Below are positions 1 to 39,234 of a stretch of DNA of 64,000 nt, piece after piece. The DNA is from Acarospora socialis (taxonomy: Eukaryota; Ascomycota; Lecanoromycetes; Acarosporales; Acarosporaceae): positions 434,001 through 498,000 of the forward strand of contig JAMYGW020000008.1 of NCBI GenBank assembly GCA_025617375.2. The letters run 5' to 3'. The stretch's first letter is position 1. The number at the start of each line of letters is the position of its first letter. The position numbers and the translations under genes were made by a program. The notes under the pieces were generated by a model. It did no database searches, had not been told where the DNA came from, and saw nothing but the letters and a program-made list of their open reading frames with translations.

Positions 1-317
1 TTCACAGCTTGCTCATTGACAGCATTTAGATCAGTAAAGACTGAGTATATGATGCTGTATTCACAGTCAATCACAAATTGAGCAAGATTCATTTTTAATC
101 TTTATAAACTTGCATTCTGAGCTTGTGCCAGCTCATTATGATTCACTTATGATGTGTGACTGTTCATAATTATGACACAACAGAGAACAAAGAGTCAGAG
201 AGAGCAGTATGTCTTTCAATGCATCACAGAGCTAGAGCTTTCTACTTTAAAAGAGACAGATTGGTCAAAAAGCTTATTTATGAACTTGGTTTGTTCATTA
301 TGAATCAGGTTGAGCAA

Positions 318-640
318 TTAAAAGATTAAATAACTCAGATCAGAGAGAAGTATGTCTTTCAGTAACATTGAACATGACTTGAGACACTTCATGTTCTCAA
401 AGAATGTAGAAAAAGAAATTATAATGTATGAGACAACAGTGATATTTTTAAGAATCTGTGAACATTCAGAACATGATTCTACATCAGAATATATGTTGTT
501 TTCTTTCATTTGTGTCTCAATATATTGACAATCTTTGGTGAATTTAAATGAGCAGCAATCTTGAAGCACTTGTACAGTGTGAGTATCAACATGACAATTC
601 ACAGCACCAACTATAAGCTGTTAAGTAGCTCTGATTCACA
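318..640 (-). pseudogene. Unidentified protein fossil P1 (paralogue of P2)
   Basis: A minus-strand frame of about 100 codons that I cannot name. It is supported as former coding sequence because a second minus-strand frame at 3,719-4,110 aligns with it over about 80 residues. Shared landmarks are VLQD/ILQD, then K-D-C, then QM...NNI, and finally a hydrophobic stretch ending in FFEN/FLENxKxLxS. Both copies are in state 1. No catalytic motif is visible. The frame has no convincing natural start and is probably an internal piece of a larger gene. Confidence 0.4.
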
Positions 641-1595
641 AAAGATAACAAATTATCTTCTGTGAACAGTATCAGCAGTATTGAACTTTGAAACATTGAG
701 ATATGAGCTCATTTCTGAGCATCATTGTGCAAATAAGACAGACAAATCATCAACTTAAAAAGCTGATCAGAGCTCTCTGAAAGAGACTAATGCATTTAAT
801 TTGTCACTGAATGCTTCAAATGTATTATGTGTCACAACATCTCTTTTCAGGTTCAGAATGCATTCTTTGTTGTTTTTTGTCAACTTACTCAGTCATTTCT
901 GCTTGTTCAATGAATCATGTTGTAGATGAGTGATCTGAATGCAAAGAAAGATGTCATTATCACTCAGCAATCAAACATTCAGTATATTGTCTCAAAGTGC
1001 AGTTCTGAGTTCAAGGCTAAGATCTATTGTGACATTAATAAAGAATACAAGAATATCAAAGATGAATTCAACTGTCTCTGTATAGATTAATGACTCATTA
1101 CTCATCAGTTGAAATATAACATATCTTGACAGCTTCTAATTGATGTCTTTCTCTTAAACATGTGATATTATTGACTGAGTCAAACTCTGAAGAATCTTGC
1201 AGATCATCATTGATGTAATTGTACAAGTACTGAAGTAGAGTGTTTGGTGTTATCAAAGTCAGTATATGGTTTTGTGAATTCAGTTGGTCAAATGTCTTCA
1301 ATTTGAAGTGATTTATCAAGCTTGCTACTGTTCTCATGTGAATTGAGTGTGAGCTGTTGAAAGAAAGCTTTTCAATGAAAATCTTGACAGATATACAAAA
1401 TGCTCAATTCTGCTCACAAAGCAACACATCATTGCATACAGACTGCATTTAAATGGTAGTCTGAAAGAATTTTTGTGTATATTGATGATCTAAACATCAT
1501 CTATGAACCTAAGTCTGTACCTGTTGCTCTAGCTTCTTTTAAAATCAATTGACTAGTGTCTGAGCTAAGTATATGTTAGAAATGATGTCAGAAAG

Positions 1596-1695
1596 AAATG
1601 CTGAAAGAGTAATCAAAAGTGAATGCTTGAGATGAAGTTAAAAGTGAATACTTAAAGAAAGATCAGAAGAGAATGCTGAGAGAAGTGTCTGAAGT
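1596..1695. repeat. Tandem repeat, four 25-bp units
   Basis: Four consecutive units of exactly 25 bp begin at 1,596, 1,621, 1,646 and 1,671. Each starts with (g/a)aatgct or a close variant and most end in aaagt, gaaga or gaagt. The unit length is not a multiple of three, so it is unlikely to be protein-driven. The units differ by several substitutions, which fits the mutated surroundings. Confidence 0.75.
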
Positions 1696-1837
1696 AAATG
1701 TATGAAAAGATCAACAGAGAAATTACAGAAAATGAGTTGATTAAGAAAACTCTGTTCTTCAAACATACAGACATCTATCTTTATCAAATTTCAAACTGCA
1801 TAGAGACACTTAGCAATTTTGTCTTTAGAAGTTTAGC

Positions 1838-2308
1838 ATGGTAGATTTCAATAACTCAATGCATTCTCTCATACACTTAAAGTCTTGTCTGACAATGAAA
1901 ATTGACCTCAATGCAAGCAGACAACCAGCAAAATTCACAACAGAACATGAAGCTACACAGTCAGATTCTCAAAGCTATCAGAACACTCAGAAGAATGAAA
2001 TTCAAAAGCTACATTGTTAAAATATAGAGAAATGACAACAACAGCTTGACAAACTATCTGCTTTGAACTCAGAATATATTAAGAAGCTAGATCTGAAAGA
2101 ATGCATGCTGAAGATACAGACAGTATTGATAGAAAGACTTGCTGCTGAAGAGAATCATTTAAAAAGACTGATAGAGACATCTGAATCTTCTGACATAAAC
2201 TTCAACAAATGTGTGAAAGATGTAGAAGAGACAATACAAGTGTTGCAATATTGAGAGCAAAGCATCTTGTACTTCAGATCTGCAGATAGAGAAAGACAGC
2301 AAGAAAAA
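1838..2308 (+). pseudogene. Coiled-coil protein fossil
   Basis: One plus-strand frame runs about 155 codons, broken only by stops explainable by C-to-T change (TAA near 2,020, TGA near 2,034 and 2,252). The second half (2,063-2,300) is rich in Leu, Glu, Lys and Gln with heptad-like spacing, for example KKLDLKE, IERLAAEE and DVEETIQVLQ, so a coiled coil is likely. I do not recognise the family. The same-frame continuation across the stops is the main evidence that this was a gene rather than chance. It lies downstream of the 25-bp repeats with no visible link to them. Confidence 0.4.
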
Positions 2309-3718
2309 AAGTGAGAATAGTTATCTGCTACACTTTGTCAATTCTAGCAAAGACAAAAATAGAAAGTAACATGTCACATTATTGTTGTCTTTCTTATTGC
2401 ACATGTAGTCAGTGTTTTGCTCAGGTCCATAGCTTCTCATATTTTACAGCTTTTTCTCAGAATCTTCATAATTCTCAAATTGATGAATCATTTTCTGAAC
2501 ATTGTGTTGCAAGACTGCAATCATCATCTGAAGTTGCTTCAAACAGATCTTCTTGAGAATAGTAGAAGATGTTGTTATCTTCAGTCACTTGTCATTATTT
2601 TGTGCAATAAAGCAAGATTTAGACAGTAGTCATAGAGCAGTTATCATAAAAACTGTGTCACAAGAATCAGCATGACACTTGTGAAAGCTATCATTTCTGA
2701 TGGGTGAGAGCACTGCAAATGTACACTTCTTGACACTTGTTTGCTTGCTGAAGAGAAACTGTAAAGTCTGTGTCAAGAAAACAGATGTCTCTTCATCTTG
2801 CTGTTCAAACAAGCACATGAGCAGTCAGAGTTGATTGGCACCTGATGATGGTACACAAAGAATGAGAAATGTTTGTGTGCTTCTCATCAGTGAGACTGAC
2901 ACTGACAAGACTAACACAGTCAATGACAACATCAGTTCAACCACATTATCAGAATCAAGCTCATCATCAGAATCTTGTTGCTCTGAAACAATGTCTTTGT
3001 CTGCATTTGGCACATTCAATAAGAATGAAAGATGATGACTTGTGAACTGCACTTTAAAATCAGACATATTAACATCTTTCTTCAGATGCTCAGTGTGATT
3101 TTCTTGAGATGTTCTCAGTGATGAGTACTGATTCAGATCATCTTCTTCTGAACTGAAGAAAGCATGAAAGAAGTCTTGTTTGATGACAAAGAATGTCAGA
3201 TATTGCTTGAGAAGAATGCTGTAGAAATTTGAGTAGATATGATCAAGAAAAAGACTTTTCTTGTCTGCTTAAAAAGAATGCTTTCATGACCTGCCACATC
3301 AATCAAAGATATGCAATTCACAGTTGTCATGATCTGAAGTCAACTCTGAAGTCACTGTTACTCTTTTGAGATACAGAATGTTGCTGAGAAGTTGGCAATT
3401 GAGCTGAACTATTCAATGCATTCACTCAGAATTGATGATGTAGTACTTCAAAGATAGAATGCTATGCACACAATCATCAATTATCTTGGTGTTCACTTTT
3501 TTGCAATCACAGTACATATGATGAATTCATCAATACTCATTCTCTGATGTCAGCAAAGAGAGTTTACATCATCATTGTGACTGTCTTTCTGAGAACAAAA
3601 TACTCTGCTTGATTCTGACTCTTCAGAGTGACTGATCATTCATGATGAAAAAGTGATGAAGAGCAAAGAGTCAGAGTTGTCTGTAGAATAATCATGAAGA
3701 GTGACTTAAAGATGATGT

Positions 3719-4110
3719 TTAATTCTCAAAAGTGAACTCACTTGTCTGCACCTTCATCTTCACCTGTTCACCATGAAGAATATTGAAGTGTTGAGACATC
3801 AAGTCTTTACACTTATCTGGTAGAAGCTGCTTCAAAATTTTTGTGAAAGACTCAAGATATTTTGTGTTTTCAAGAAACATATGAATGAACAGAATCACAT
3901 GCTCTATCACACAGAAACAGTCAAAGATCTGTGATTGTTGATTGTCAGCTTTGACAGTGAGAAAGATATTGTTCACAAGCATTTGATTCTGAACATGCAC
4001 ACAGTCTTTCAACAACAGCATGAAATATCAGTCTTGCAGAATAGCAACAGTGTTGACATTAAGTTGAAGTTAATCTGTCTCTTTGTTCCTGATGACCTGT
4101 GTTCATGTTT
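3719..4110 (-). pseudogene. Unidentified protein fossil P2 (paralogue of P1)
   Basis: A minus-strand frame of about 100 uninterrupted codons, extendable upstream through one TGA (Trp-like) to about 4,110. It aligns with P1 at 318-640. The clearer part reads QNQM, NNIFLTVKAD, VIEHVILF, then FLENTKYLES and KILKQLLPDK. This suggests an alpha-helical protein, but I cannot assign a family. Two copies 3.4 kb apart on the same strand suggest an old local or segmental duplication, the kind of substrate a homology-dependent mutator would act on. Confidence 0.45.
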
Positions 4111-5389
4111 TGTTGATTCTACACAAGTAGTGAGTCATTTTCTGTTGTCATTTGTCAGAGAACAATATGACATAAAAACAAGACTCATATCTCAGAGCAG
4201 TGTAGATTCAGAAGTTGAGTGAAAGTTTTCAGCTGCAATGCTGATCACAGATCTGCAAACAGAATCAGAACATTCAAACTTTTCACAAACTTCTTCAGAA
4301 GTGTCTTCAGTTGCAGAAGACATTTCTGCATGCTTTTTGAAAGTTTGGTGAATCATTTCTGTCTTCTTGCAATATTGTTATGCAAAGTGAAGATGCAAAT
4401 TTGACAAACAATATCTTCATCATAGAGTTTTGTGAATTTTGCATCATGTTCTCACAGAACATTCTTCACCTGAGTGCTGAGATCTGATCTGTATCAACAA
4501 GCATATCTTTTACATAAAATGAAACTCTTTTATCTTCAGAATAAAGATTCACAACTCATCATCTGTTGTTGTTTTTCATGAGAAATTTTTGTGTCACTTT
4601 CAGACAATGTCTTCTGTGTAGACAGATCACAGAACACTCAAGATTAAAGTGCAGTGACTTCTCTTCTGAGCAAAGATTGTGAGATATAGCAGATCAAGAT
4701 ATCAGTGCAGAAATGTGATGTTTGAGATTCAGACACAAGCAACTCTCTGAGCAGAAGAAGTTCAGTAATATTGTGATGTTCTTCTTATTAAATTGGTGTG
4801 AGTTATTAAAAAGCTCTTCATGACAGATTTTGTCAAGAAGTATCTTGATCAAATCACAAAACATTCAGCTCTTCTCTCAAAATATCTGTAGATCATTAGT
4901 CAATAAGCTGTTCATGGTGAAACATGTGCACACTGTGAGATATCTTTCAGTTCAAAGGCACTACAAATGCCTATTAGTGAAATAACAAAGTGAGTCATAT
5001 CTGAATCTGATAGCATTCATAAGTGATGCACAAAAGATGCTGACAATATATTCTCTCACTTCTTCAATTTCTTTTCTTTATCACATCTCAGCTATCACTT
5101 TTCTGAGCTGGTTTTTCTTTCTTGTTCTTTCAAAACTACTGTCATTTTGATTTCTCTGCTTTCTTCACTCTACTCTTGGTTGTACTTTGAATTCTGCTCA
5201 TCTATTCTTAGTTTTGCATGATGAGCTTCAGAAATGACTGCTCTTCAGTATTGACTTTTCTCATCTAATACTGACTCTCTCTATTATTGACTTCTCTTTA
5301 TTCAATATTTGTTCTCTGTCTTCAGCACTGATTTCTACTGAAGAGAGATAGACAATAAAAATCAACAATGTGGTGATGGTTCTGAAGCA

Positions 5390-6071
5390 AACCCATTCAT
5401 TTCACACTCTTTTTGTCAGTATCTTTGACTTTCACAGACAGAAAATGAACACAACTCAGTTTTATATGATTGCTGCAGACAGCAGCATTGTTTTTCTGCT
5501 CATTATCAATTCTGTATTTTATCTGACTCAGTTTCTCAGATCTTTTTGAACACTGCTACAGAAGTATTTTCTGCTTTTTATGCTCATTGAATGACATCAC
5601 TTTGTTGAGTCATGAACATCTGCACAGATCTCATTTCAGTTAATCTATCTTGCAGTCAATGTCTTCTGTGTCAGTTTCAGAGTACACACTGCAGAAGAAG
5701 CAAGTCTTTGTGTAGGTCATTTATTGTTGATCAACATGATACTGATTTACTTTGAATTTCATCTCAGCTTCATTTGCAATATGTTGAAAGTCTCACTGAT
5801 CACATATCATCTGTTTTACATCTCAATGAAGATCATGTCTGTTCTTCTTGAGTTGCTTCATGTTCTGATTCATGTGACTTGCAAGTTAAGCTTCAATGTT
5901 GATGAGTTGTAACAGATGTTTGAACTGATCATGAATCACATTGTCTTCAAGAAGAATGTCTCTGCTAATCTTCTTTATAGATAACTGTCTGCATGATCTC
6001 ACTGCTTCTTTTGTTGTTGCATTTATTTTGTCTGCTGTTGTATGAAGTCTTTCTTCATTGTCATCAGACAA
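5390..6071 (-). pseudogene. Helical protein fossil, two frames
   Basis: A minus-strand frame from 6,071 to about 5,645 (about 140 codons, stops only of the TGA/TAA type) encodes a charged helical sequence with RLHTTADKINATTKEAV, ILLEDNVIHDQFKHLLQLIN and NQNMKQLKKNRHDLH. At about 5,640 the coding-like character moves to another minus-strand frame and continues to about 5,390. This could be an indel or an old intron. No family recognised. Support is the length of the frame and its amphipathic character. Confidence 0.35.
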
Positions 6072-7609
6072 TGATCATTGTTCTTACTTATGCTCTTTGA
6101 AGACACATTTCTTCTCACTCAAAGCTTTCTCACATTTATCTACTCATCTTCAGCTGCATCTTTGCAGCTATGTTCACTTTAGAGTGCTTTGTCATTCTGT
6201 ATCAAAATGTGACTATTTATTGTGACTGTTTGTGAGTCTTGATTGCAAGACAAAATCACATCATCAGAATGACCATCTTTCTCATCAGACCCTGAAAAGT
6301 CAAAGCTGATCAGTACATCAATGTGTGAATTTCATCTATCAATCTTTGATCTTCTCTGCAGAGTCATTCATTCATTATTGCATCATGAAGAGATAAACAG
6401 TCTGTCTTTCTCAAGATCTTGATAGAGTCACAGAACAGCTTTACACAAAAGCTTCTAAACTGTGTCAATGAGTATTAGAAAGATGATAGATCATGTGTGA
6501 AGCTGCAAGACAATTTTGAAAAAAGATCTTTTGACTTTGTCAGACACTATTCAAACAGCTTCAAGTCATTCAATTTCTGTACTGTGTTTGTTAGTGAATT
6601 ACATGACTCTATCATTTCTGCCAGCAAGTATAAAAAAGTAGTCATGATTATCAGCAGCTTCAGCATCACAGCACAGCTATTATTGTTGAAGAAGCTAATA
6701 CAGAGCTTTAACTGTGCTGAGATTCATACACATAGTATTCATTTGATGTGACAATTGCAGAATCTCAGTTTGTCTCTCTTTGCTTCTTTAGTGTCAATAG
6801 TCTCTAACTTTAATAGATAATGAATACTCAGCAAATGATCTGCTTGACAGAGCACTGAAGAAGGACACACTGAACTGTGACTATGTAAGTGAAAAGAAAA
6901 GAATCTTCAAGAAGTTGACTGACTAAGTCATGCTAGATGCTACATATCTCAGTCTTCTTTGCAAAAGTGCACTTAGATTCAAATCCTCAATATTTGAGAA
7001 AGCATCAATGTGTTGTCTACTGCAGTGAAGAGATGAATCTTTCAAGTCTAGTATGTGATCAAGCTGATTCAGGATCCAATAAGAGTAGAGAAAGAGTTTT
7101 GATTACAGGTTTGTGAGCAATTCTTTGAAAAAAAAACTCTCAAGCTAACATCTGTTGCAGTCTCTGCAAACAAAAATCTTCATGATAATGTGTGAAATCT
7201 GATCAGATCACATCTTCATGAGAGTACAGAATTGTTGAAACTCAAGTATTAGTCAGTGAAGAGACAGCAACATTTCTGATCTTTCATTTGAAGACTTAGA
7301 GAAATTTCATAGTATATGAGCTCAGTAAATAGAATCTCATTTAGATCACAATCTTTGTCTTGTCTCAAAAGCAATTGAACATCAATACCTTCATCTTCAT
7401 GAAATGACATTCATAAGTGATCTTCATCTTCTACATTCATAATTGAAGCTTGGTATCATGTTCACTCAGGGAAAAATGTGTCTAAAAATAAAGCATCTTC
7501 AATTTTGACTGCTCAAACATTCAGTTTTGACTTTCAGAGCTGAGAGCAAGACAATCATTGAATACTCACAGTCTCTTCTACCATCATCTTCAGTTTCACA
7601 TTTGCAAAC

Positions 7610-8157
7610 ATGTCTCAAAACAAAAGACCTGTTATCTGTCTCTTTGATTACAAGACAACAGTCAAGAATGATGAAGCTGCTGTCAAAGAAGTGATCAGAT
7701 ATTCTTACACTAATGATCTTATGACATCATCTCACTCTCAGCACTCAGAGAAAAACACATTGAAAAGTGCACCTGATCTCACAAAATTCATCAAACTCAA
7801 TCAGAACAGAAATGATGATGCAGTTTTAAGAAGACAGAGTGAGCAGCTTGTGAGAACATTACTTAAACAATTGTATCATCATCTCATGATCATTGAGCAG
7901 GCTGAATCTGCAGTCATTGAGGTGAACAACACTGACTATCAAAACAAGTGACCATTAAACAAATAAGAAAACCCAAAGATCCTGTTCATCAGATACTGCT
8001 CTTTACTTGTGATCAGATTGTCAATATTAAAGACATGTATGTCAACAATGATGACATTGTTTTCATTTATGAGCAAATAAATGTGTCACTGCAGCATATG
8101 ACCAACATTTGCCAGAATCATTTGTTGAAAGTCTTTCAGATTGTGACAATCTGCTGA
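7610..8157 (+). pseudogene. Unidentified ORF fossil, two overlapping frames
   Basis: An ATG-started frame of 113 codons (7,610-7,951) overlaps by a few bases a second plus-strand frame of 69 codons (7,948-8,157). A stretch near residues 12-36 (LFDYKTTVKNDEAAVKEVI, then RYSYTND) resembles the acidic/YxYTxD part of BTB/POZ domains, but the rest does not fit, so I do not make that call. The change of frame could be a decay indel or a lost intron. State 1 composition. Confidence 0.3.
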
Positions 8158-8980
8158 GAGATAAGTGTCAGCATAGATCACATTAAAAGCTGACATGCTC
8201 ACAAACAACCAGATCATGAGCAGTCTTCTCTATATACACAAAGAGCTTGATCTGACTCATAGCACACTCAGTTGCAGCATGATTCTTCTTGATCTCAACA
8301 GAAGAGTGAAGATTGGTAGGTTCTAAGAGAGAGAGACTGTGTGTTGATGACTGCTGATATGTTTCAGCAAATGTCAACAATTCTTTCATCAAAAACAGAT
8401 GACTGAATTTGAATAACAAGCACAATGACATTTGTAGCCTAGAAGCTGTTATGATGAAGCTGATGAAGTCTACAACCTATATTCTAAACACTCAATTCAT
8501 GAAGCTGAAGAATGTGAATAAGTGAAAAGATAATCTTGAAATAAAAGACTTTCTGACAGCAACACAACATAGGTTCTTGCAAGAGCTGAAAGAGATAAGT
8601 TTCTTTGATTGATCTAGATTCTGAAATATGTTCTGATGCAATAAGCATGACTTTCTACCTCAAGAATCTCTTGAAACATGTCTTGTGTCTCACATCTTTT
8701 GCACATTGAGAGCAGCTAGATTAGAAGATTAAAACATCTTGTTCATGCTGTAAAGGTTTCAGACCTGATATTGATTTGTGGGTAACAGAAAATTTTGTAG
8801 ATAGTTGATATTTATTATGAGTGCTCAGAATCTATCAATATTGTCTACTTATTGTATTTTCAAGATTTGTGCCTCTTGAAGCATCTTTTCATCTTTGAAT
8901 AAGTGTCTGACCTGAGCTTGAGAGCTCAAAGAATGAGTGATTATCATCAAGAACAGATCTTTGACCAAGAAAGTGAGCAC

Positions 8981-9203
8981 TGTGAAAGTCAGTACCATGA
9001 AAGTCAGTACTGTGAAAGTCAGTATCATGAAAGTCAGTACTGTGAAAGTCAGTACTGTGAAAGTCAGTACTGTGGAAGTCAGTACTGTGAAAGTCAGTAC
9101 TGTGAAAGTCAGTACTGTGAAAGTCAGTACTGTGAAAGTCTGTACTGTGAAAGTCAGTACTGTGAAAGTCAGTATTGTGAAAGTCTGTACTGTGAAAGTC
9201 AGT
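8981..9203. repeat. 15-bp minisatellite, about 15 units
   Basis: About fifteen head-to-tail copies of a 15-bp unit (tgtgaaagtcagtac and one-base variants such as catgaaagtcagtac). Because 15 is a multiple of three, several frames stay open through it: plus-strand frames read as CESQY or VKVST repeats and a minus-strand frame as STDFH repeats. These open frames are a by-product of the period, and I do not call a gene. The array is more homogeneous than the surrounding mutated DNA, suggesting expansion after, or homogenisation during, the mutation period. Confidence 0.9.
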
Positions 9204-12200
9204 CACTTGAGTAGATCTTGTGTGCAGTGACTGATTCTTCAAGTATTGACCAATCTGAAGTGTGATGTTCTGAGATGAGCATTTTCAATTCATGTCACAA
9301 GATAAGCTTTTGATTGATTTATCACCTGAAGTTATAGATCTGAACTTGAAAGTCACTACTGAACAATTGCTCATGAAATGCTCTTAAGTCATTGATATTT
9401 ATTATTTTCCATGAATTTTCTTTTCTTCTATAGTATTTAGTGAGTGAATGTATCATAAGTGACAACACAGTCAACCATACTATATCTGCATGCTAATCAA
9501 TGCAATATATGACTGATAAAACTAAGAAGAGCTAGATTCTTAAAAGTCTGTTATTGATCTTGATTTACTAACATTAAATATACAAATCTAATATCTGTGG
9601 TTGATAACTTCATATGCTGTCACTTATGATATGTTCAGTTACTAAATACTAGATCTCTTCATATCACATGCTTATTACTTGTGATTGACCAGTCTGAAAT
9701 TTGAGACAACCTAGAGTCACACAAAATGCACACTAAACAAGCAACACCAACATCAAAAGCATCTTCAACCAAAAACTTCACTCTCATCAAGAAGCATCAG
9801 AACTCTTCATATGACATGGCAGTCACTGTTCAAGATGTATGCTAAATTTCACTATTCTTCATTCTGTTTTGATCTTGAACCTAACTTTGAGCTAGTGAGA
9901 TTGCATTTTTCATCATTATCATTGTAGCTTCTTTCTCCCTGCTCAGTCAAATGAAAAACATCAGCATTCTTGAGATCTATTTTGTCTTCTCTGTTAGCAC
10001 TAATGTTTGTTTGTATGTTTGTTTGTTTTATTAACACTTCATTGTTGACAGAAAATGCTCAACCCTCACAGCAGATAATTGAATGTTTTGCAGAGAATGA
10101 CTGAAGTTAAAATGCTTCTCTCTTCAGTCATGTTTCAGTTGATGAGTTGAAATCTCTACACAGTTATCTTGATCAATCAATAGCTAATGGAAAATGTTCA
10201 CAGAAATTCTTTTGAAAAGTCAAACCACTTATAGCTTTCATTTCATTAGATATTTCAACAAATCTATTCAATGTCTTTCTGACTCTCAGCTGCATCACAT
10301 TCTGTAGAGCTGACATCTCAAGCTGTTACAACTTATGACTGCTCATCAACAATGTTTGATTGACATCTCTTTAAATATTGAGTCAAAGACATCTGAGATC
10401 AAGATCATATGATAAGAACTGTCTTCTGAAACATTGATTCTCAAGCTTCATTGCAGTCACAGTGTGCTGCTGCAGCAATCATTCATTTGAAGAAGATTTT
10501 TGAAATTCAGTCATCTTCTTTAATCATCATGCTTCAGAAAATACAGTCTGACATATTGAAGACAATTTTAGTTGATAGATGAATCAAGAGCATTTTCTCA
10601 TGTCTCATGCTGTCTCAGATGATCATCTCATCATAATGCTTGTGACTATAGAATATCTTCACACAACAGTGATTTCAGATCTTTCTTGAAGAAGATCTGG
10701 GCAGAAAAGCTCTTTTTGTAGATATTCTACTCACATCTTGCTCTGAAAATGAACTGAGAAAGAAAGTGTTGCAGCTTTGCATCACACACTTGATATCTCT
10801 GAAAAAGATGAGTCAGCTTGCATATCTTCATCAGCTATGTGTCTTTTCACAACTTAGAAAGTCACTCACAAATGATATCAGTATTCAAGAAAAATTGATC
10901 TGAAATCATCTGAATTTTGTCTTTTGATATGTGAGTGCTCAGAATATCAGCTTCTTCATTGTTTGAAACAACACTGACAGCACAACTGACATTGATCTAT
11001 CTTATCATTTTTGTGAATCATCAGATTCAGCTTTGCAAGCCTGCATCATCAAGTTAATTCAAAATAATGTCTCAGAGAGTGATTCAGAGCTATAACTTTT
11101 ATTCAAGAAAAGTCATAAGTTTATTGTCATGAAACAGCTTCAGCTATCATCACTTAAACAGATCAAAGATCAATCTGAAGATATAGACAGAATTGATGTT
11201 AGTCTTAAGATCAGAGTTAAAATTTGTGAATCATGAGATCTGATTGTGAAGCAGTATACTAGAAGTAAAAGAAATTCTACTGATGTTGACTATAAAAGAA
11301 AAGAGTTCAATGTTTTGACTCATTCTTGCTCTTGAGATTAAGACATTATGAAGAAGATTGTAGCAAGAAGATTGTTCTTTTTCAACAGTGAATGCTTGTT
11401 GATCATCAAGAAAATGATTTTCTTATCAGAGATAATAAGATGATAAAAGATGTGAGACATTTTTGATATTGAAGTTGTTTTGTGCTCACTTCATAAACTC
11501 TTAACAGCTCTTTTTCAGTTCTGTGAACTGACTAATCATATATAAATGTGTACAACTAATCAATGCAATTCTACATTTTACAATGAGTGAGTCATGTCTG
11601 TAAGAATCAGTTTCAGTATCTGACTGTTGTGTCTCATGTTATTAAATCTGTGCTTCACTCTCATGATGACTTTGCTCTCAGCTTTTCAGTATGATGAAAG
11701 TCACATGCATAATGAGTCAGTCTTGTTGAGTAGTGAAACAGGTAAGACATTCATGATGATGTGCATCTCAATCATGCATTCATTCTAGTTCATGAAATTG
11801 AACAATACACTTAATATTGTATAATTGTGATCTGTTCTTATCTGTAAGACAGATTGATAGACAATTGAGAACTTGCAAAGCAACTTATAGAAAATAAAAT
11901 TAAATTGTCATTTCATGCACTCTTGCACCATATGTGCAAGTTAATTCATCTGCTCAACTAGAAACAACATTTAATGATATCTGATGAGACTGATACAACT
12001 TTTAAGATTTCTTCATTCAACATTCTGTTGATCATCACTCTCTTTGATAACACTTTTCTTGTCTGTAAGATGAAGAGAGAATTGACTTAAATAGTCAGAC
12101 ACTACTTGCAGTCTTTCACATCTTCTGTGTTTTTCTCAACATCTGATCAAGCTGCTGATGCAGCTTCTGAATTACATAATTGACTTTGCATTAATATTAT

Positions 12201-12279
12201 ATCTGCACTTTCAATTAAGAATGCATGATATACTGTGTCTGTCACACAGAGTCATTGTGTGCAGATAAAGAGTTAACAT

Positions 12280-15456: not shown

Positions 15457-15685
15457 TGATATCTTGATGAGCAGTACTGTCAGTCTTGTAATGCATCACA
15501 TAAGAATATGTTAATAGAGTTCAAAGTTTTGTTGCATATCACAGAAGATCTTTCACTCACAAATGTCAATTCATAGATTCTTTGTCTGAACACATCACCT
15601 ATCAGCTATGACTTACACATTCTTCTCAATCATTTGTAACAGTCAAAGACTCATCTCATACAAACACAATGCAAACTATTTTCTT

Positions 15686-17200: not shown

Positions 17201-17886
17201 TCACTAGTGACTGCTGACAGATCTTTTGTGTTTGATGTGATTCAAATTGTGATTTCTTCTTCATTAAGATGTTCTTCAACACAAACAGTCATTATCTTAA
17301 AATTATTGTTCAAAGTAGTCAACAGAAATGTCAGGTTGCCAGCAATTTCATTTTCTTGCAAGATACTTAAACAATGAGTTGAGTTTAATTCAGAGACTAA
17401 AATATTCTCTTTGAATCACTCAAAAATCTCATTCAGCTTCTGAAGATGACTGATGCTGTTTTGCAATTGTTGATGAGTAATAGCACTTTTTCACATTGCT
17501 GATAGCAAATCATATTGTATGAGTTGAAGACTGCATCAATGAAGTTTAGATAGAATTCTCAATATCATCAGCTAAAACTCTGAATATCTTGTTCACATAG
17601 AAACAGAAAGTGATAATGATAGTATTTAAGAAGATAGTGTTAGTGTTGATGTTTTTGAGAGATTGAGAAACCTTAGTGCCATGATTTTAGTCACAAACAT
17701 CAGTTGCATTTTACCCCACAATTTTTAACCAGCTTTTCACATTGTCATTTGCAGAATGAAATCTTACAGCACTGAATTGATGACAGAATGTCTAACAACA
17801 CTGAATGAATGCAGTACTGAATTCTGCTTTTCTTCTGTGACATGTGGTGTGAGTGATTTTTGAAGTTACTTCATCACTCATAGTGT

Positions 17887-18034
17887 GAATCATATCTCAT
17901 GAGACAGATCACTTCTGGTGTATATCACAGCTGATGAGATGAATTATGTTTTATGAGATGAATCACTTCTGATATACATCATTACTGATGAAAGTAAATT
18001 ACATCTCTTGAGATGAACCACTTCTGATGTACAC
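17887..18034. repeat. Tandem repeat, about 55-bp unit, 2.7 copies
   Basis: Units start at 17,887, 17,941 and about 17,996. Each follows the pattern (g/a)aat(c/t)a..tct(c/t)(a/t)tgaga..(g/a)a(a/t)c(a/c)acttctg(a/g)t(g/a)ta(t/c)a(t/c). Copies differ mainly by C/T and G/A transitions, as expected if an exact repeat was hypermutated. Confidence 0.7.
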
Positions 18035-18373
18035 AGCATGATTTTATGGTGCTGATCAAACATAGTAAAATATAGACTGTTAAAATCAACATCTTTCTAT
18101 CAGAAATGAATGCTTTTGTGACAGATTGTTGTAATTCACAAAATTTCACTACTAATTAGATCTTGTTGTACCATTCATCTTTGTTCTACTGACATATCTA
18201 TATACTGTATTTCAAATGCACTCAGAGCATAATTCTGATTGCTAGTCACTGCTACTGTATCTTTGATCTGTTCTTGATGTGCACACTGTTATTGATGAAT
18301 TGTGAGATGAAGACATGAATCAGCAATGCAGCATGAACAGCACTGATGTGAGAGCTGACAGAGACAAGTGGTG

Positions 18374-18507
18374 TGCAAACAGCACTGAGGTGCAAACAGC
18401 ACTGTTGACACTATATATATCATAATTTATTAATAAAGTGATGCTCAACAGTACTGCTTGCTCAGTTATATTAATAAAGATAATATAATGAAAACAGTGC
18501 TGTAACA
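18374..18507. repeat. Dispersed repeat R1, copy 2
   Basis: Second copy of the repeat at 15,319-15,456. It also contains doubled GCAAACAGCACTG words just upstream of the shared core, and it ends with GTGCTGTAACA, an LTR-like terminus. A further AGCAGTACTGTT word at about 18,535 suggests neighbouring fragments of the same family. Confidence 0.65.
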
Positions 18508-20547
18508 ACAATATTCTAAGCAATTAATTGAGAGCAGTACTGTTCAGTTACAAGTCAGTGACACTCTATATACTTCAATGCACAGTACTGCTCAAGTGTA
18601 TTTTCAAAGTGAGCTTCTTTAAAATCTGTGACTTCATAGACTTCATAATCAATGAGATAACTTTAGTTTCAGAGACTGGTTTTTCTAGAAGAGATCTTTC
18701 AAGCACACTCTCTCAGAAGATCTAGTATTTCAGATACATTTTTGCACACAGAATATAAAGTAATGATGAGAGCATAGCTTAAGCTCTAATGTATGAGCAG
18801 AATAAACATAAATCATAACAATTCTGACTCATCTCAGCAATCTTTTTAATGCTTTTTCAAGAACAATCACCATATGAGATCAGTATTGTGATGATAAGTG
18901 CATCTGTTGAGCAATTTCATCATTTCATTCTGACTTGTTTGAAATGAAAGACTTTGTCTTGCAACACATTCTTATCATCATAGTTTGTATACTGTATTAT
19001 GTCTTTGAGTGCAGTACTTGAGAAAAGCACAAAGTGAAGAAGACAATTCAAGAAAGCAAAAATGCATTCTTGATCAGTCAATAAGATGATGTGTCAGTGA
19101 GACTGATGACTGAGAGACTTTCTTCATCATAGTAGACATTTCTTCAAAATTGAAGTGAGTTCTGTCTGAATTCTGTCTTGTAACTCTTTCATCTGTCTGT
19201 GAAAGCATTCATATGAGCTGAGAAAAGCTGAGTTTCAAGAAAATTACTCAGAACTTTGAGTAGCAGTCACAGTGCATGTGATCAATGTCTCTTCATATTG
19301 AGAAGCAGCTGCTGCATCAAATGTTTATTTTGTCTCTTGTGCTGAGCAACTTTGCTTTCACATCACTCTTTGTGACTCTGCAACCTCATCATTGAGTATG
19401 TTAAGATGAATAGCAAATGAGCTATTTTTGCTGTTCACAGCATTTACACAGTCACTTATATTCTGCAGATGATAGTCATTCTCATTATTGTCATATTCAC
19501 TGTTATTTTTCTTCTTTTCAAAGAATATTCTCAATCAGACACACTTCTGAATTGACTGTGCATTCTTATATGTGATTATTTCTACTCTTCAACTTATTTT
19601 CTGCATCATCTTTTGAGAATCAATAGCTCACTCATTATAGTTATTCTTCATCTCAGTACAACAACACAAGATTCTGTCTGCCTTCAGTTGCATAAGCAAT
19701 GCATATAGAGATCTGTCTGTTCATCAAACTCTTTTATGTGACAGCATCAATGAAGATCTCAATCTTATCTAAGAGTGTGTTGACACAGCAAGACACATTT
19801 TCCATACAGATCTAGTTCTACTTCATTTTCTGATGTTCAAAAACTTTGAAAGTATGACTGAAGATGAAGTAATTTGAGTTGATGATATTGCACACAATGA
19901 TTGAATGCTCAAGAAAAAGACTACAATCAACTTACTTTCACAAAAAGCTCATCTTTCATTGTTCTATGTCACACAAGCTTGCTGAAGTCAAGTACTCTGA
20001 CACAGTGAATAAAAGTTGAGCTCTGAGATGAGAACATATGCATGAATGCAACATCAATGCTCTGACACTCACATTTCACACTTGTACAGCTTCAGCTTCT
20101 CTGACCATCTCATGTAAGCTACTATATCTATTGCTTAATAGCTTTCATGCTGATCATGCTGCTGGTGTATAATTTATTTATGAGCAACAAAAATCTTTCT
20201 ACATCAGCTTTTGACACATGTTTCAACACTGTCTTCACAATCTTCTTTGATGCCATACTCCCTCACTCTATACTGCTCATTCAACAAGCCAACAACTTTC
20301 TACTGCATATATACTACTCAAGTATATTGGTTCTAATACAGGCCAGATGCTCTTTAGCACATGAAAAAAGCACTGAAATAACTCACTCTGAAGGCAGAAG
20401 CTCTTTCAAGACATGGCTTACTTGATGCTTTTCTTGATCAATATTTTCCAGCCTTGATTTTAACAACATAACTCTTAATCTTATTAGATAAACAAATTCA
20501 AAGAACAACAGTTCTATCATTCTCTGATCAAAACAGAGATCTGTTTC

Positions 20548-22284
20548 ATGACTATCAGATATTCAACAATCAAGCAAATTGATGAAGATTATCATCAGAT
20601 CATTCATATTTGCAGAGACTACAATACTAAAACAGAGAACATTGAATTCATGTTTAATCAAATTGAGTGTCAACTTAAATACACTTTGTTAGAAGATGGT
20701 CCAGAATTTGCAGTCTTGTCATATGTTTGAGATGATTCAAACAACACAGTCAAAATAATATTGAACAAAAAAGAGTTTTCAGTGATGAGAAATCTCTACA
20801 AGTCTCTGAAGTTTCTCACAAGCATTTATAATGATGGTGAAAAAATGCTTTACTGAATCAATGCCATGTGCATAAACCAGAATGATGTACAAGAGTGATC
20901 AGAACAGGTTTTGCAAATAAAGAATATTTATGAATCAGCAAAATTAGTTTTTGCATTTCTTGAAGATTTTAGTTCAGAACTGATTTCTTTCATTAATATA
21001 ATATCAATGTTGAGTGATCAGATAATCACAAATCTTGAGAAAAGACTTAATCTATTGAACAATTATTTCTTGCTGTATGAATCAGAAGAAGATTATTCTG
21101 CTTTATATGAAGTGATCACAGAAATACTCATGACATCATGATTTAGATGAGTCTGAGTTGTTTAAGAGACAGTAACATCTCTAATCAGTTCTTTTCTGAT
21201 TTTTGAACATCAGATACTATGACTTGAAGATTTGATGATCATTGAAACTGCACTTAATCAATCTTAAATCAGAAGTAAGCTGTTTTTAGATTCAGCATCA
21301 ATCATTCAAAAAAGATTAACAACAAATTTGATGAAGCTAAGAGATCTTTATTGTTCTGACACAAAGAATGTCTCTAGCAGCATTCAAATTATGAGCATAA
21401 ATTTCACCATCTTGAAACTCAGTCATCTCTTGAAAACTGTTGCAGTGCAAAAACAAGCTACTGATTTGCAAGATAAAGTTTTCAGCTTTATTGAGCTAGT
21501 TTCTTAACTGAAGTACTTCAGATTTCTGTGGTCAGACTACACTTCATTCTGCTCTAAAGTCTATCATTAGTACACACAATTTATACTTGAGATCACAGAA
21601 GATCTTGATATCTTGCTTACAAAAAGATATTAAGTTCTCAGAATGTCATCATGAATGTCAAACTTTGAGAATTCTCTAGAGAATGAAATGGTTTTCAACA
21701 AAAAAAAGAAAACACCTGTCAAAATATCAGTTGATGAAACTTGACTAAAAGTTCAGAGCACAACTCTGAAATTCTTGAATGATGTGTGACAATTCAGTCT
21801 TTTCAGCATTAAGACAAAGAGTTCTGAGAACTTAGCACAGTTTCATGAAATCATTGTACAAAAAGTCTCATATCTCAGAGACAACTCAAGTTCTGATCAG
21901 GTTTTAGATGAGTGATTGAAGTGAAACTATGAGAGTGATCAATTACAGCAGTTAAAATTCTGTTATTGTTGTATTTTAAGAGAGTTCATAGACTTCTTAC
22001 ACTCAATACTCACTATGAATGAAGAAGTTTTCAGACTCTTTGGCTCAATCTTGTTGCAGACTTATGTTGTACTCAAAGATGAGACAATTGACTATATAAT
22101 AGATGGTGAACTTTCAAGAACTGAAGATATGATGTGCATAGCACAAGAATTAAAAATTGACTTTGTTTTGCAGAAGAATAAAGATTACTGAAAGTATATC
22201 TGTGCATGTGATCTTTTGCACTGCTCACTGTCAGAACATCAATGATTGCTGAAGAATGTGCTGCAGAAGTTTACTATTATCTAG
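20548..22284 (+). pseudogene. HET-domain protein fossil, full length and single-frame
   Basis: From ATG 20,548 to TAG 22,282-22,284 one frame of 578 codons is kept without any indel. Internal stops are nearly all TGA at expected Trp positions, plus a few TAA/TAG. HET-domain (PF06985) landmarks: FAVLSYVW-DD near residue 55 (expected LSYVWGD), then W-I-N-A-M-C-I-N-Q (expected WIDAICINQ), IYESAKLVFAFLED, and WFRWVWVV-ET (expected WFRRVWVVQE) near residue 200. The C-terminus keeps an FVL....KYICACDLLH block like the FVLRP...YxGECYxHG tail of this family. HET proteins trigger cell death in fungal non-self recognition. This copy is inactivated by point mutation only. The first HET motif is almost fully readable, so reconstruction of ancestry by alignment should be possible. 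Confidence 0.85.
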
Positions 22285-22389
22285 CAATGTCATATTCATG
22301 CTTAAGTAGAGATCTATTGTCAATCTAGTCACTGATATACATTGTGAAATGAAGCTGCTGGTTGTGAAAGAAGGCAGTGCTGAAAAAAT

Positions 22390-22660
22390 GAGATTCAAAA
22401 ATGAAGACTGCAATCAAGAAAGAAAGATTTCAAAAATGATGCCAGTGATCAGAACCAAAGAAAGTTCAAAAATGATGCTTGTGATCAAGATTAAATGTGA
22501 GTTCAAAAATGAAGACTCTGCACAAGAAAGAAGAGAAGTTTGAAGATGATGCTGTGATCAGAGTTTAAGAAAGAAATCAAAAATGAAAACTGTGATCAAA
22601 AATGGCACCAGTGATCTGAGTTGAATGAGAAGTTCAAAAATGATGACTCTGAACATGAAA
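22390..22660. repeat. Degenerate tandem repeat, about 40-bp unit
   Basis: The word (g/t)ttcaaaaatga(a/t)g recurs about seven times at roughly 35-45-bp spacing, alternating with gtgatcaga or gatcaaga words. It looks like a minisatellite with indels. It directly follows the HET fossil. Confidence 0.6.
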
Positions 22661-22744
22661 TCCTGAAATGAGTGTTGATTTCAACATTCTTGATTTCAAT
22701 TTTTCTCAGTCAGTTCTTCAAACCTTTAACTTTTTTCTCAAATT

Positions 22745-23015
22745 GTGTGTAAATATCAAATCTGTCCTCAACTTAACACTACAGTACAAGATTTGCTGTC
22801 TTATCTAAGCATGCATATTAATTTGCAACAAAGACAACATGAAGAAGCAACAAGAAGAAGAGCTACTTTAATAAAGAAGATTCATGAGTATGAAAGACTA
22901 TATAATGCAGATGTAACATTAATTATCTGTCTTGATGAACAGTATTTTGCATACACATCTGTTGATAAGAATAATTCATGATCATCTATGAAGCAAATAG
23001 TAGAATAATCTTCTC
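22745..23015 (+). pseudogene. MADS-box-like protein fragment, hypermutated
   Basis: A plus-strand frame with TRRRATLIKKIHEYERLY, then NADVTLIICLDEQYFAYTS, and after a TGA a short SSMKQIVE. The pattern R-R-x-T-L-x-K-K-x-x-E-x-x-x-L-x-x-x-D-V-x-L-I-I resembles the SRF/MEF2-type MADS DNA-binding domain, and fungal genomes contain divergent single-domain proteins of this kind. About 60-80 residues are recognisable. The frame dissolves after about 23,015. What else it could be: a helical protein with a chance match. Confidence 0.5.
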
Positions 23016-23699
23016 AGATTATACAGAGAGATCAACTAAATCTGTCATAGATGCTCTTATATTCTATTTCTAAAATTCTGCTTTCACATCATGTTGATGC
23101 TCAACTTCAAAAGTGTTCACTGAGAAGTAATTGTAAGAATGAGTCTGCAATAGCTGAAGAATAAAGAAAAATCAAGATCATTACTTCAAGAGATATTTGC
23201 ATTTCAGTTAACTTATAATCATCTTCAAGAATGACAGAGTAACTTAGTTCTTTAACAAAGTTGGTTGGCATCAGTATCTTGTTCTTGGTATCTTCATTCA
23301 TAGCATTGTTGAACATACTTTCATCATCTCAACATAGATAGATTTCAGATTCAAGTTCTCTCTTCACAATATGCTCTCATGTGATTTAAGGATCAAGATT
23401 TGTATCACATAGATGAAGAAGTTTTAGATTCTATGAATCTAAGAATGAATTATTTGCATGTGAGACATTCACAAGATTTAAATGCCTGCAGACAAAGTTG
23501 AGCACAGTGATCACTAACTCAGTTAAACATGATGTTCAATTGAAGTTATACTGTAGAGATAAATGAATTCTTGAAGATGATAAAAAATAAAAGTCATCAT
23601 CAATAACATCATCACATCTACAGAAGATTGTATGTCATGTTCTTACTGTCAGATATCATTTGATTGATGATGAGCACAAGCAATTGTTTTGTTTCATAA

Positions 23700-24710
23700 T
23701 TGTGTTTGAGTTACAAATATAGCAAGATAGTAGTGATGATGAACATTGATGACTGTTGGTGCAGATATCTTATTTTGAGTTTGATATTCAAGACTGTGAA
23801 CAAGTCAGGTCATCAAGACTGTATTTTGTCAATAAGATTGTTTCTCAACAAGAAGAGAAAGATTGTTTCTCAAAGAGTTGAACTGTATCATTTGTCTGAT
23901 GAACATGCCATTTGTTGAGGTTGTTTGTCAAAGCTGTTACTGTATGATAGAGATAAAAATCAGATTCTAGTGAAAGCAGAATCAGAAACTCATTGCTTAA
24001 TGAATGCTGAATTGATTAGAATCAGACAGAAGTGAAAACCAGCATCTGAGTCTAAGTCTGAGTTTCTGGCAGAACAAAAAGAGCAAAAATTGAAGCTTGT
24101 GCATGAGTTGAAACTGCAAATTACATTTCTCATTTTGAGCAACATCAATGACTGCTTCAAGCAAGAGAGAATGAGATATATGCTGAAATTGAGATTGTCA
24201 CCACACAGCTAGAACTGTGATAGAAGAAAACTCATCACTGATACTCTTGAGACAAATTCACATCTTGCATGCATTCTCTGATACATTCTTTAGCAATACA
24301 TCTTTCTGTAGTTGTTTTGCTGCAACTATCTTCTTTACAGCTCAGATCAACTTCTTGAAGTTAAATCTGTTCTGAATATTATTCTTTATTGTGAGACAGA
24401 AGATGAAGAGATCACAGTCTTTATTTAAGAAGTCTATGACTGCATTACACTCACAATAGTAAAGATCTTAAGTGATGATGACAATATAAAGCTTCATCTG
24501 AAAATTCTAGAAGCAAACAAAGCTATAGAAAACTGGCAGAACAGCCACTTCAATAAAGTGAATATGGTTGACTCAATTGACATAAAGAGAATTGAGAACA
24601 TTATTGTAAAGACTCACTTTCAGATTGCAAAGTTTGAAGTACAAAAGCAAAAAAAACAGTTTCTCAGTAGAATGCAGAAGCTCATTGAGCTGGTTGAGAA
24701 GAGTTCTTAG
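23700..24710 (+). pseudogene. Unidentified protein fossil, about 336 codons in one frame
   Basis: A continuous plus-strand frame from about 23,700 to a TAG near 24,709, interrupted only by TGA/TAG/TAA at positions compatible with C-to-T or G-to-A change. Segments include ILSIRLFLNKKRKIVSQRVE, YDRDKNQILVKAESE, then a helical region (LKLVHELKLQITF) and a C-terminal FEVQKQKKQFLSRMQKLIE. I do not recognise the family. Length, frame continuity and charge pattern argue for a former gene. It lies between the MADS-like fragment and the DUF3435 fossil. Confidence 0.55.
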
Positions 24711-25023
24711 ATCAGTCTCAGAATTTTAAGATGAAGCTGAACAGATTCATATAAGAATACAGTCAAATTAGTTCTCAGCTAATCAATCTGCATCCTTTAT
24801 CAAGAAGTATCATAATCAGTGTTCTCTTATTATGTCATATTTTCTTCACTGTCTTGTCTGCAAATGTGTCTTGACTCTTTCTTTTGCAATCATTTTTCTT
24901 TTTCTTTTATCTTGATTGAAGAACTGATCTTGCAAATATTCACCATGTTCTAATGAAGTACAAGGCCCATAATGAAAAAGAAAGTTTAATATAGAAAGAA
25001 CAAAATATAAAACAGTATGAGAT

Positions 25024-26943
25024 CTAGAAACAAAGCATAATCTTATGCACCATTGCAATATGATTTTTGAAAGACTGTTTATTCAGTAAAACCTTAGTCA
25101 GTCATCTTGTCTTACACATTTCACAAAAAATCTTCTGACCAGGTGCAAGTATCTGAAGATGGTATTCAACATGATTTCTCATCTTATTGACATTGCACAA
25201 CCTTCTTGTTCATTCTCAGTAAGACTTGACTTTGTTATCTATGCAAATAGAGCACTGAGTTGACTCACAGATCTCAGAAAATGACTCTGTTCTGATCTTT
25301 GAGATATCTTCTACTTTGTTCTGCTTTGAGATGAATTTGTGTCTGTCTCAATGCTGGCTTTCTTGTTGATTGCACAGCACTGTTCTAGCTTTGATGACAT
25401 TAATTCATCAAGTGAGCTTTTCATGATTCATCAAGAGAGTCACAGAATTGCATGTTAGCTGAATGATGAGATTCTGTTCTGCAACTTTGTATACTTTTTG
25501 TTCTGAATGAGTGGCATTTTTGAAGAGCTCTTGAAAAGAAGAGTCAGCAAATTGAGCATTAAGCTTCAATGTATTGGTGTTTCTGAAGTGTCTCTTTTGA
25601 GTTTTCTTAATAAGTCTGACTTGAAGCTCTGTTCTGACACAGCTCAAGACAGTATTTGTCTGTCTTTTCTGCTTGTATAGTTTGATCTCTTGAGTCTTCT
25701 CAATGCTTGAATATTTTTGCATTCTGATTTTGACAGTTAGAGCTTTACTCTTTCTTTGCAGTCTGATGACTCTGAGATGATTCATAAGCTTTTGTGACTG
25801 TTCAGCAGACAACTTCATTGATGCAGTGAAATCAATCATCAAGTTCATGAGTCTGATCATCTTTTGCACAGTCTCATCAAACAGATGTCTCAGAAAAGCA
25901 ATCTGTGTGTTGAATTGAATTTTCTGATCAAGATAGTATTGCACTGTGTTCAAGTGATGATTCATGATCTGATCTTGTACTGAGATCAACATCTTGTCTG
26001 TTCATTACTTCAGAATAGTCTCTTCACTTTGATTAAAAAGAAAGAAGAAAAAGAGAAAAGAAGTTAAGAAAGAGAATAAAATACTGTTGACAGCATTGCA
26101 GAGATCACATTGAACTATGTATTGAGTGAAGAAATGCTCTAGATCTGATTTCAGTTCAAGTTGTTTGATGTAGTGAATTCATGTGCTGAAATGAAGAAAC
26201 TTCATGACTGACATTTCATACTCATTCAATAAGCTGATAGACTGACAGAAGATCAAAATATTCAGCATGCTGCTTTCTTATTTCAACATGATGCTCTTCT
26301 TGCTCATCAATATCTGAATTTAATATATATTATCAATGTTCTGCATGAACTTTGAAGCAAATGCATTGTTGTGACATGTCAAAAAAAAAATATGTTCAAG
26401 AAGACAAAGCAGAGAGTCATTCTCTTTCTCAATAACAAAACTCTTTCTAAACAGTCACTAGGTCAGTTTAGTAAAGACACTGTAAGACATCTCAGTTGCT
26501 TACATCTGAGATCAATTATCTTCTTCTTTAGTGTGAAGCAATGTGATCTTCATCAACACAATATTGACTTTCTCAGAAATGAAATTTCAGACAATAATGA
26601 TGCTGATATGTCTGTAGAGTATGGATTTTGTTTTGTTGATTTTTGTCTCACAGTCATCATCAGTACCACTGTCACTGTCATAATTCACATCAATATTGCT
26701 CTTTTCATCTATTTCACTATTCATATTGTTGTCACTGTTCATATCACTGTCTCTGTTGATGACAAAGTCACTATTCATGTTGCTGTCATTACTATCACTG
26801 CTACTGTCACTGTCTATAATGATGTCACTGTCAGTGTAGCTGTTGCAGTCATCATTGTCATCATTGTCAATATTGTTCTTGACATTGTTGTCTGTGATTT
26901 TGATGTCATCAGTGTCATTAAATTTCAATCTTGTATCAAACAA
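25024..26943 (-). pseudogene. DUF3435 (tyrosine-recombinase-like) protein fossil with C2H2 tail
   Basis: About 640 codons in one minus-strand frame, ending at TAG 25,024-25,026. In order: an acidic Asp/Ser/Asn-rich loop (26,590-26,943); MKITLLHTK; DNxxFASKF...NIDNIY; KKSIMLK and MLNILIFCQS (expected KSIxLKWKESMLDxPIFRQ); a CNAV block where RGxxNAV is expected; a possible intron at about 26,035-26,095; QIMNHHLNTVQYYLDQ, containing the position of the catalytic Tyr; KRHFRNTNTLKLNAQF; and a C2H2-like end (CSIC, HVEYH, CEMC, HIAMVH). This is the FluG/DUF3435 architecture (PF11917), the family that includes captains of Starship elements. The N-terminal part is missing: upstream coding is lost within about 100 bp of the Gypsy G1 remnant. 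The lambda-integrase-type Arg appears mutated (Gln). Confidence 0.8.
26640..26930. repeat. Low-complexity (t)cactgt(c) tract inside the DUF3435 fossil
   Basis: Repeated gtcactgt, gttcatat and catcattgtc words read on the minus strand as Ser/Asp/Asn runs. The related fossil near 50.3 kb has a similar shorter tract (atcactgtcactgtca), so it belongs to the protein and is not an independent satellite. Confidence 0.6.
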
Positions 26944-27079
26944 TGAGCATGATTAACAGTCAGTGAAGACAGCAAGAAGCAGTGCTGTGAATATTTAAAC
27001 CTGTTGATGCTCATCAGAAAACATCACATTGTTTTAAACTCAATGAGTAACAAGAATCAGGTAAAGATTGTCAATATAC

Positions 27080-30281: not shown

Positions 30282-30298
30282 CGTATCCTTATATTGTA

Positions 30299-30340: not shown

Positions 30341-30370
30341 CCTACCTCTAACTAACCACCATTATTCAAA

Positions 30371-32441: not shown

Positions 32442-32456
32442 TAAGGGTGTTCAACG

Positions 32457-39229: not shown

Positions 39230-39234
39230 AGTTA

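Follow-up and report, generated by a model that had tools for sequence, protein, structure and literature searches.

C-to-T mutation directed at CpG and then at CpC in a 64-kb window of the Acarospora socialis genome

Accumulation of C-to-T mutations in fungal mobile DNA has been described in several systems, of which repeat-induced point mutation (RIP) of the Neurospora type and CpG-biased decay are the closest to the case reported here. In Acarospora socialis (31.1-Mb genome, 38 contigs), we analysed a stretch of 64 kb, hereafter referred to as the window (bases 434,001-498,000 of contig JAMYGW020000008.1, designated C8), which contains copies of a long terminal repeat (LTR)-type element as well as a probable relic of a larger mobile element, and in which C was mutated to T in the target order CpG >> CpC >> CpT ≥ CpA. 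As in Neurospora-type RIP, the changes are C-to-T/G-to-A transitions in transposons and adjoining DNA, in a genome that carries a RID-like gene; by contrast with RIP, the target order is nearly reversed, with CpA last, TpA is depleted rather than enriched, neighbouring sites are nearly independent with regard to the strand mutated, and RIP indices are negative.

Among the other systems described to date, a decay biased to CpG has been reported for Tuber melanosporum, for Microbotryum and, to a weak degree, for rusts, and ascribed to methylation and deamination (Amselem 2015, PMC4352252); the main change there, as in A. socialis, is from CpG to TpG or CpA, whereas CpA (Tuber) or no context at all comes second there and CpC does here, with hardly any CpC left in the copies that are most eroded. 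A rise in CA/TG has been reported for Uncinocarpus reesii, and high CG methylation for Pseudogymnoascus destructans and Tuber, which have DNMT1 or DNMT5 together with RID and Dim-2 (PMC7862722); U. reesii resembles A. socialis in being an ascomycete with CpA/TpG-rich repeats, but we did not find a CpC preference reported in that source. For the MATE elements of Aspergillus nidulans, RIP with a preference for CpG and then CpA has been described (cited in PMC2621366); CpG is thus the first target in both species, but the second is CpC here. The repeats of Stagonospora nodorum are likewise poor in CpC, CpG and the complementary dinucleotides; there, however, CpA-to-TpA change dominates and TpA is increased, while in A. 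socialis CpA is increased and TpA decreased (PMC2621366). The dim2-dependent mutator of Zymoseptoria tritici likewise produces C-to-T changes in repeats, in a genus with the Dim2, Rid and Dnmt5 classes, but it prefers CpA and leaves CpG untouched (PMC8016269). With regard to CpC, heterozygous CpC changes were the most frequent in the basidiomycete Rhizoctonia solani AG8, in counts that were not normalised to CpC content (PMC4014442), and CpC-to-TpT double changes were found alongside CpA changes in Monilinia (PMC8959702); together with the depletion in Stagonospora, these reports argue against complete novelty of the CpC step. CpC as a preferred target of RIP was not found in a limited body of open-access literature, which did not extend to the surveys by Clutterbuck 2011, Sharpton 2009 and Neafsey 2010. 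CpG-first decay is hence known already in some fungi, and what is distinctive in A. socialis is the reversed order, the near-completeness of the losses and the CpC step. The repeats of Coccidioides, which Sharpton treated in 2009, are also said to be free of CpG.

Dinucleotide composition of the window

The window consists of a hypermutated block in which CpC/GpG is strongly depleted and no CpG occurs (positions 1 to 30,104), an unmutated island with 253 CpG and a GC content of about 50% (30,105 to 35,282; the first CpG occurs at position 30,105), and a second hypermutated block with only 2 CpG in 28.7 kb (35,283 to 64,000; CpG at 52,088 and 52,525). Base counts predict 796 CpG in 1 to 30,104, which excludes chance as the cause of their absence. 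A first-pass annotation of this DNA had described hypermutation for 1 to 27,050; as CpG is absent up to 30,104 and nearly absent past 35,282, the pattern extends to 27,050 to 30,104 and to 35,283 to 64,000 too. Expressed as observed/expected values with both strands counted, composition in 1 to 27,050 was 0.00 for CpG (none found), 0.15 for CpC/GpG, 1.63 for CpA/TpG, 1.30 for CpT/ApG, 1.44 for TpC/GpA and 0.51 for TpA, at a GC content of 33.4%, in agreement with the annotation's account of abundant CpA/TpG, virtually absent CpG and rare CpC/GpG; depletion was hence far stronger for CpG and CpC than for CpA, which was in excess. Counts for 30,300 to 35,000, which had been proposed as a contrast, were ordinary (GC 49.6%, CpG 0.81, CpC 1.01, CpA 1.08).

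The annotation had also anticipated that standard RIP indices would score this DNA as not mutated, and this was the case: with thresholds of >1.1 for the product, <0.75 for the substrate and >0 for the composite index (PMC6714961), 1 to 27,050 yielded 0.55, 1.74 and -1.19, respectively, and none of the 30 kilobase windows of 1 to 30,000 passed. The CpA preference and TpA excess typical of RIP were likewise missing, CpA being the least mutated context and TpA being depleted. RIP is commonly scored by CpA/TpA indices and 30 kb of CpG-free DNA score as untouched by them; decay of the CpG/CpC-first kind may therefore be under-counted.

Forward simulation of five hand-set mutation rules on normal DNA of the same genome showed that mutation of 100% of CpG, 85% of CpC, and 10% of CpA and CpT gives values (GC 0.327, CpA 1.58, GpA 1.46, TpA 0.56, ApG 1.29) that compare closely with those of 1 to 27,050 (GC 0.334, CpA 1.63, GpA 1.44, TpA 0.51, ApG 1.30). 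Simulated mutation of CpG only left CpC at 1.09, so that loss of CpC is not a by-product of CpG loss, and a classical CpA rule (CpA 80%, CpG 30%, CpT 10%, CpC 5%) did not fit, with CpA at 0.39 and TpA at 1.49.

The order of the losses is also apparent in 512 non-redundant 500-bp segments, which were drawn from the window and from loci fetched by similarity to the window or to a methylase family and hence do not represent a random sample of the genome. None of these segments had CpC below 0.5 while CpG exceeded 0.15; 370 segments were without CpG, with CpC spanning 0 to above 0.7, while 12 had residual CpG (<0.15) with CpC already below 0.7, and a single one had CpG of 0.15-0.3 with CpC of 0.5-0.7. 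The two losses thus overlap slightly, CpG being all but exhausted before CpC drops far. When loci are pooled, both dinucleotides recover within roughly 1-2 kb of the eroded cores, with few segments in the far bins of this curve, where the values dip again; the edges of the island in the window are sharp, i.e., within a few hundred bases. A pyrimidine before the target seems to favour mutation, because the CpC that survive in 1 to 27,050 (n = 226) mostly follow A (61%, versus 24% in normal DNA; 10% versus 28% for T), even if part of these A may derive from G.

Copies of the LTR-type element

A hypermutated LTR-type element occupies positions 40,708 to 46,813 (plus strand) and has at least 29 matches in the genome, itself included (best 13 of 432 candidates). 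An alignment of 13 long copies covered 4.16 kb; a second hypermutated copy in the window, inverted (57,468 to 63,657, minus strand), lies outside these 13. Transitions accounted for 51,629 of the 55,071 pairwise mismatches, a C:G-to-T:A bias in repeats that the annotation had expected and that is shared with RIP. CpG was absent from the aligned stretch in 12 copies and present twice in the remaining one, and CpC plus GpG numbered 0 to 89 per copy. At 255 ancestral CpG sites, defined as columns with TG in at least two copies and CA in at least two, the 13 copies now read TG 1,436 times, CA 1,581 times, TA 238 times and CG twice; as expected for decay by deamination, CpG was the first target and was resolved to TpG or CpA at random. 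Pairwise identity is mostly 0.80-0.84, and most copies decayed independently, since they are about equally distant from one another. Copies L013, L014, L016 and L019, as well as L015 and L018, are closer than the rest (up to 91%, for L014 and L019), as would be expected if duplication had involved a copy that was already eroded, at least in part.

Rates in the other contexts depend on how original cytosines are recognised. With a loose filter (constant 3' base, C in at least two copies), under which some CpT and CpA columns may originally have been T, 283 of 394 CpC, 1,470 of 6,331 CpT (23%) and 802 of 5,336 CpA (15%) were mutated. A strict filter (C in at least eight copies), which biases rates downward and for which no CpC column qualifies, gave 125 of 2,539 CpA (4.9%) and 202 of 2,687 CpT (7.5%) in the less eroded copies L013-L019, and 245 of 2,141 CpA (11.4%) and 298 of 2,255 CpT (13.2%) in L007-L012; the fraction of CpC mutated per copy was 0.42-0.68 and 0.81-1.00 in these two groups, respectively. 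The CpC rate is therefore roughly 2 to 20 times the CpA/CpT rate, depending on the filter, and the CpG rate is faster still. CpA and CpT, which the annotation regarded as spared, are slowed but not spared, and its rule of C-to-T change before G or C agrees with the dinucleotide counts, the 13 copies, an outgroup (see below) and the simulation, except that CpG and CpC are unequal targets. CpC loss is not confined to CCG, as 110 of 142 CCA and 167 of 243 CCT were mutated; in line with the survivors in 1 to 27,050, mutated CpC were less frequent after A (68%) than after T (77%), a weak trend.

The outgroup is a related element on contig C14 (C14:275,914-281,911), which is unmutated in the two 3-kb stretches examined (L037 and L038; GC 0.49-0.52, CpG 0.86-0.99, CpC normal). 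It has a pair of 319-bp direct repeats, 5.8 kb apart, which look like the LTRs of a retrotransposon that would be young because the two repeats are 99.06% identical. Identity to the mutated relatives is 57-75% in aligned stretches, and the element escaped mutation either because it is too new or because it is too unlike its eroded relatives to be recognised. With this element as reference (0.9 kb against the 13 copies), C was replaced by T at 67% of CpC, 26% of CpT and 21% of CpA, and at 50% of CpG, the maximum possible when each CpG is mutated on one strand only; in the reverse direction, T reads C at only 6-12%.

Strand choice at the ancestral CpG sites is even, and each site seems to have been mutated largely on its own. 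The correlation between the strands chosen at neighbouring sites was 0.005 at 2-10 bp (null standard deviation [sd] 0.024) and 0.018 at 10-25 bp (null sd 0.018) and was negligible beyond 50 bp; the one small excess was 0.054, found at 25-50 bp against a null mean of -0.009 (sd 0.013). Similarly, at 94 CpC sites in seven less eroded copies, same- and opposite-strand neighbours were not clearly off the null, with the largest same-strand correlation at 50-150 bp (0.077, null sd 0.037). By contrast, 91.9% of the mutation clusters produced by RIP in N. crassa are strand-exclusive (PMC7296669), a comparison to be read in light of the fact that relics may pool any number of rounds whereas the clusters stem from a single round.

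Slow decay and rival explanations

Genes for three cytosine methyltransferases were found in the genome. The best solved-structure match of a DIM-2 homologue (methylase domain, with a BAH match just under Pfam's cut-off) is 9bap, a 1,456-residue methyltransferase (E 1.3e-191) that we take to be Neurospora DIM-2. A DNMT5 homologue matches 7r76, labelled Rad8 in PDB and presumably Cryptococcus DNMT5 (E 2.5e-67), and a SNF2 match at C8:617,422 lies 2.5 kb beyond the match of this homologue; Rad8 of this kind has been equated with DNMT5 (PMC7862722). The third methylase, on contig C2, has no BAH match and appears RID-like by its domain make-up, by exclusion and by motifs. In addition, two SRA-domain matches exceed the cut-off, so that machinery for CpG maintenance is encoded, and DNMT5 assisted by SRA proteins would suit the CpG step. 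No enzyme with a context that could be found matches the CpC step, which is the most interesting loose end. The target order nevertheless provides a quantitative footprint that can be linked to one of the three enzymes, and such a link would allow tests of how the sequence preferences of RID and DIM-2 are determined.

From the observed transitions, target order, even strand use, nearly independent neighbours and set of genes, we infer methylation, an acting enzyme and a timing under which silenced mobile DNA decays slowly through C-to-T mutation coupled to cytosine methyltransferases, site by site and on either strand; we assign this explanation a probability of about 0.5. Mobile DNA would become heterochromatic and methylated. 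DNMT5, assisted by SRA-domain proteins, would maintain methylation of both strands at CpG, and CpG would be the earliest context to change, turning into TpG or CpA at nearly every site. Either DIM-2 or the RID-like enzyme would provide a second and weaker process that marks CpC and, more weakly still, CpT and CpA; these would be lost after CpG, helped somewhat by a preceding pyrimidine. Near-independence of neighbouring strands favours such slow decay over a burst tied to duplication, although it is not decisive. The same applies to the paucity of copies of 1 to 15,000, for which a DNA search found only seven matches elsewhere in the genome, all short; DNA searches can overlook copies, and lack of a match does not prove rarity, yet this stretch is nearly unmatched while independently decayed LTR copies are still found at about 82% identity, which favours slow decay of silenced, methylated DNA. 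For 15,001 to 27,050, three larger partners with 78-84% identity were among the matches listed (best 39 of 555 candidates).

RIP proper, i.e., RID-dependent, premeiotic mutation of duplicated DNA, with its preference shifted from CpA to CpG and then CpC and applied in many light rounds, ranks below methylation-coupled decay and short of an even chance, but it is a serious contender. The genome has the RID-like gene, the clearest targets are transposon copies, and RIP has a threshold of identity between copies for recognition, under which the unmutated C14 element likely falls at its identity to the eroded copies. RIP also leaks into flanking DNA. It accounts poorly for CpA as the least mutated context, for neighbours that are nearly strand-independent where Neurospora has strand-exclusive clusters, and for 15 kb with short matches only elsewhere in the genome.

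Several points weigh against slow methylation-coupled decay. That 1 to 15,000 is unpaired could be due to loss of a partner copy, and copies can also have been overlooked by the DNA search; many light rounds of RIP could likewise yield uncorrelated strands. The sharp edges of the island are a feature that spreading silencing need not produce. The mitotic mutator of Zymoseptoria targeted CpA and not CpG, even though CpG is the main methylated site (PMC8016269). Finally, among the contexts found for these enzymes, i.e., CpT for Neurospora DIM-2 (PMC13297926), CpA for Zymoseptoria Dim2 outside CpG (PMC8016269) and CpG for DNMT5, none predicts CpC as the second target, and no catalysis by RID was detected in vitro (PMC13297926).

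We tentatively consider, at somewhat less than even odds, that the pattern reflects a genome-defence mutator with a reversed preference (CpG before CpC, CpA last, and the target preferably preceded by a pyrimidine), in which an enzyme of the RID/DIM-2 class with changed specificity erases giant single-copy elements as well as repeats while being invisible to RIP indices. A vegetative, DIM-2-dependent mutator with a CpG/CpC instead of a CpA preference is improbable: a DIM-2 homologue is encoded and Z. tritici has a mitotic mutator that depends on dim2, but this known one targets CpA (PMC8016269). Least probable by far is that the DNA was not mutated but is foreign, inherently CpG-free, or an artefact of assembly or base calling; a 30-kb stretch wholly devoid of CpG is extreme, but at the 13 places of one element an ancestral CpG has become TG in part of the copies and CA in another part, which excludes foreign DNA and base-calling artefacts for the LTR family; errors in calling methylated C on both strands would tend to produce TA, and the relics hold fungal families.

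Features of the hypermutated blocks and the island

The block from 1 to 27 kb is what remains of mobile DNA and not ordinary intergenic sequence, because it holds a broken DUF3435 gene that is oriented into the block and two DUF3723 remnants; 16 of the 27 open reading frames of at least 85 amino acids in 1 to 27,050 were run against Pfam. The DUF3435 gene (25,462 to 26,619, minus strand) matched PF11917 at 25,408-26,001 in one search (E 4.1e-12) and in two pieces, 25,462-25,980 and 26,083-26,619, in another, the second piece spanning 8 stops. The DUF3723 (PF12520) remnants are at 318 to 620 (minus strand, E 3.3e-14) and 3,719 to 4,027 (minus strand, E 1.2e-11). We take DUF3435 to be the family of Starship 'captain' recombinases and DUF3723 to be a family of Starship accessory genes. 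As in Starship giant transposons, remnants of both families occur in one 27-kb block and the recombinase, although broken, faces the cargo; by contrast, the remnants examined here are broken or partial. On the basis of this association, the first 15 kb would be part of a Starship-like relic, the left end of which may be outside the window. A second broken DUF3435 gene lies at C8:503,790-504,681, 5.8 kb beyond the end of the window. Ten DUF3435 matches were listed for the genome; stops interrupt 8 of them, and the other 2 cover only part of the family. A 95-amino-acid frame at 12,418-12,705 with a weak protein-kinase match (E 9.4e-4, under Pfam's cut-off) is perhaps a kinase relic within the block.

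Also in the first block, 15,595 to 17,822 has a detected second copy on contig C22 (78% identity), and 27,109 to 28,244 is a fragment of a many-copy repeat related to the LTR element of the window. Of the 40 listed matches to 15,001-30,000, 36 map to this fragment; within it, 27,120-27,583 is 75% complementary to 43,738-44,201, in the LTR element.

The island contains a Fot1/pogo-type DNA transposon (30,297 to 32,443, plus strand) with 87-bp terminal inverted repeats (78%) and Pfam matches to DDE_1 (1.5e-25) and HTH_Tnp_Tc5 (5.7e-6) in two frames; no second copy was among the matches listed (best 40 of 69 candidates). It is followed by a dispersed LTR-like repeat (32,442 to 32,629), which is also present in both members of the 319-bp pair on C14, and by a frame with a HET domain (33,129 to 33,857, plus strand; Pfam HET, 6.4e-24), a family of heterokaryon incompatibility.

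Two stretches of the second block, 36,300 to 40,700 (GC 19.6%, CpG 0, CpC 0.02) and 47,000 to 51,600 (GC 19.2%, CpG 0, CpC 0.01), form the most eroded class and are probably the end state of decay; leftover C in these stretches is enriched after G (GpC 1.51 and 1.35, respectively), as if a preceding G protected cytosine. Graded copies, from unmutated to a GC content of 19%, may serve as a time series. Finally, the CpG-free block contains a tandem repeat at 8,969-9,203, with 15.7 copies of a 15-bp unit and 90% matches.

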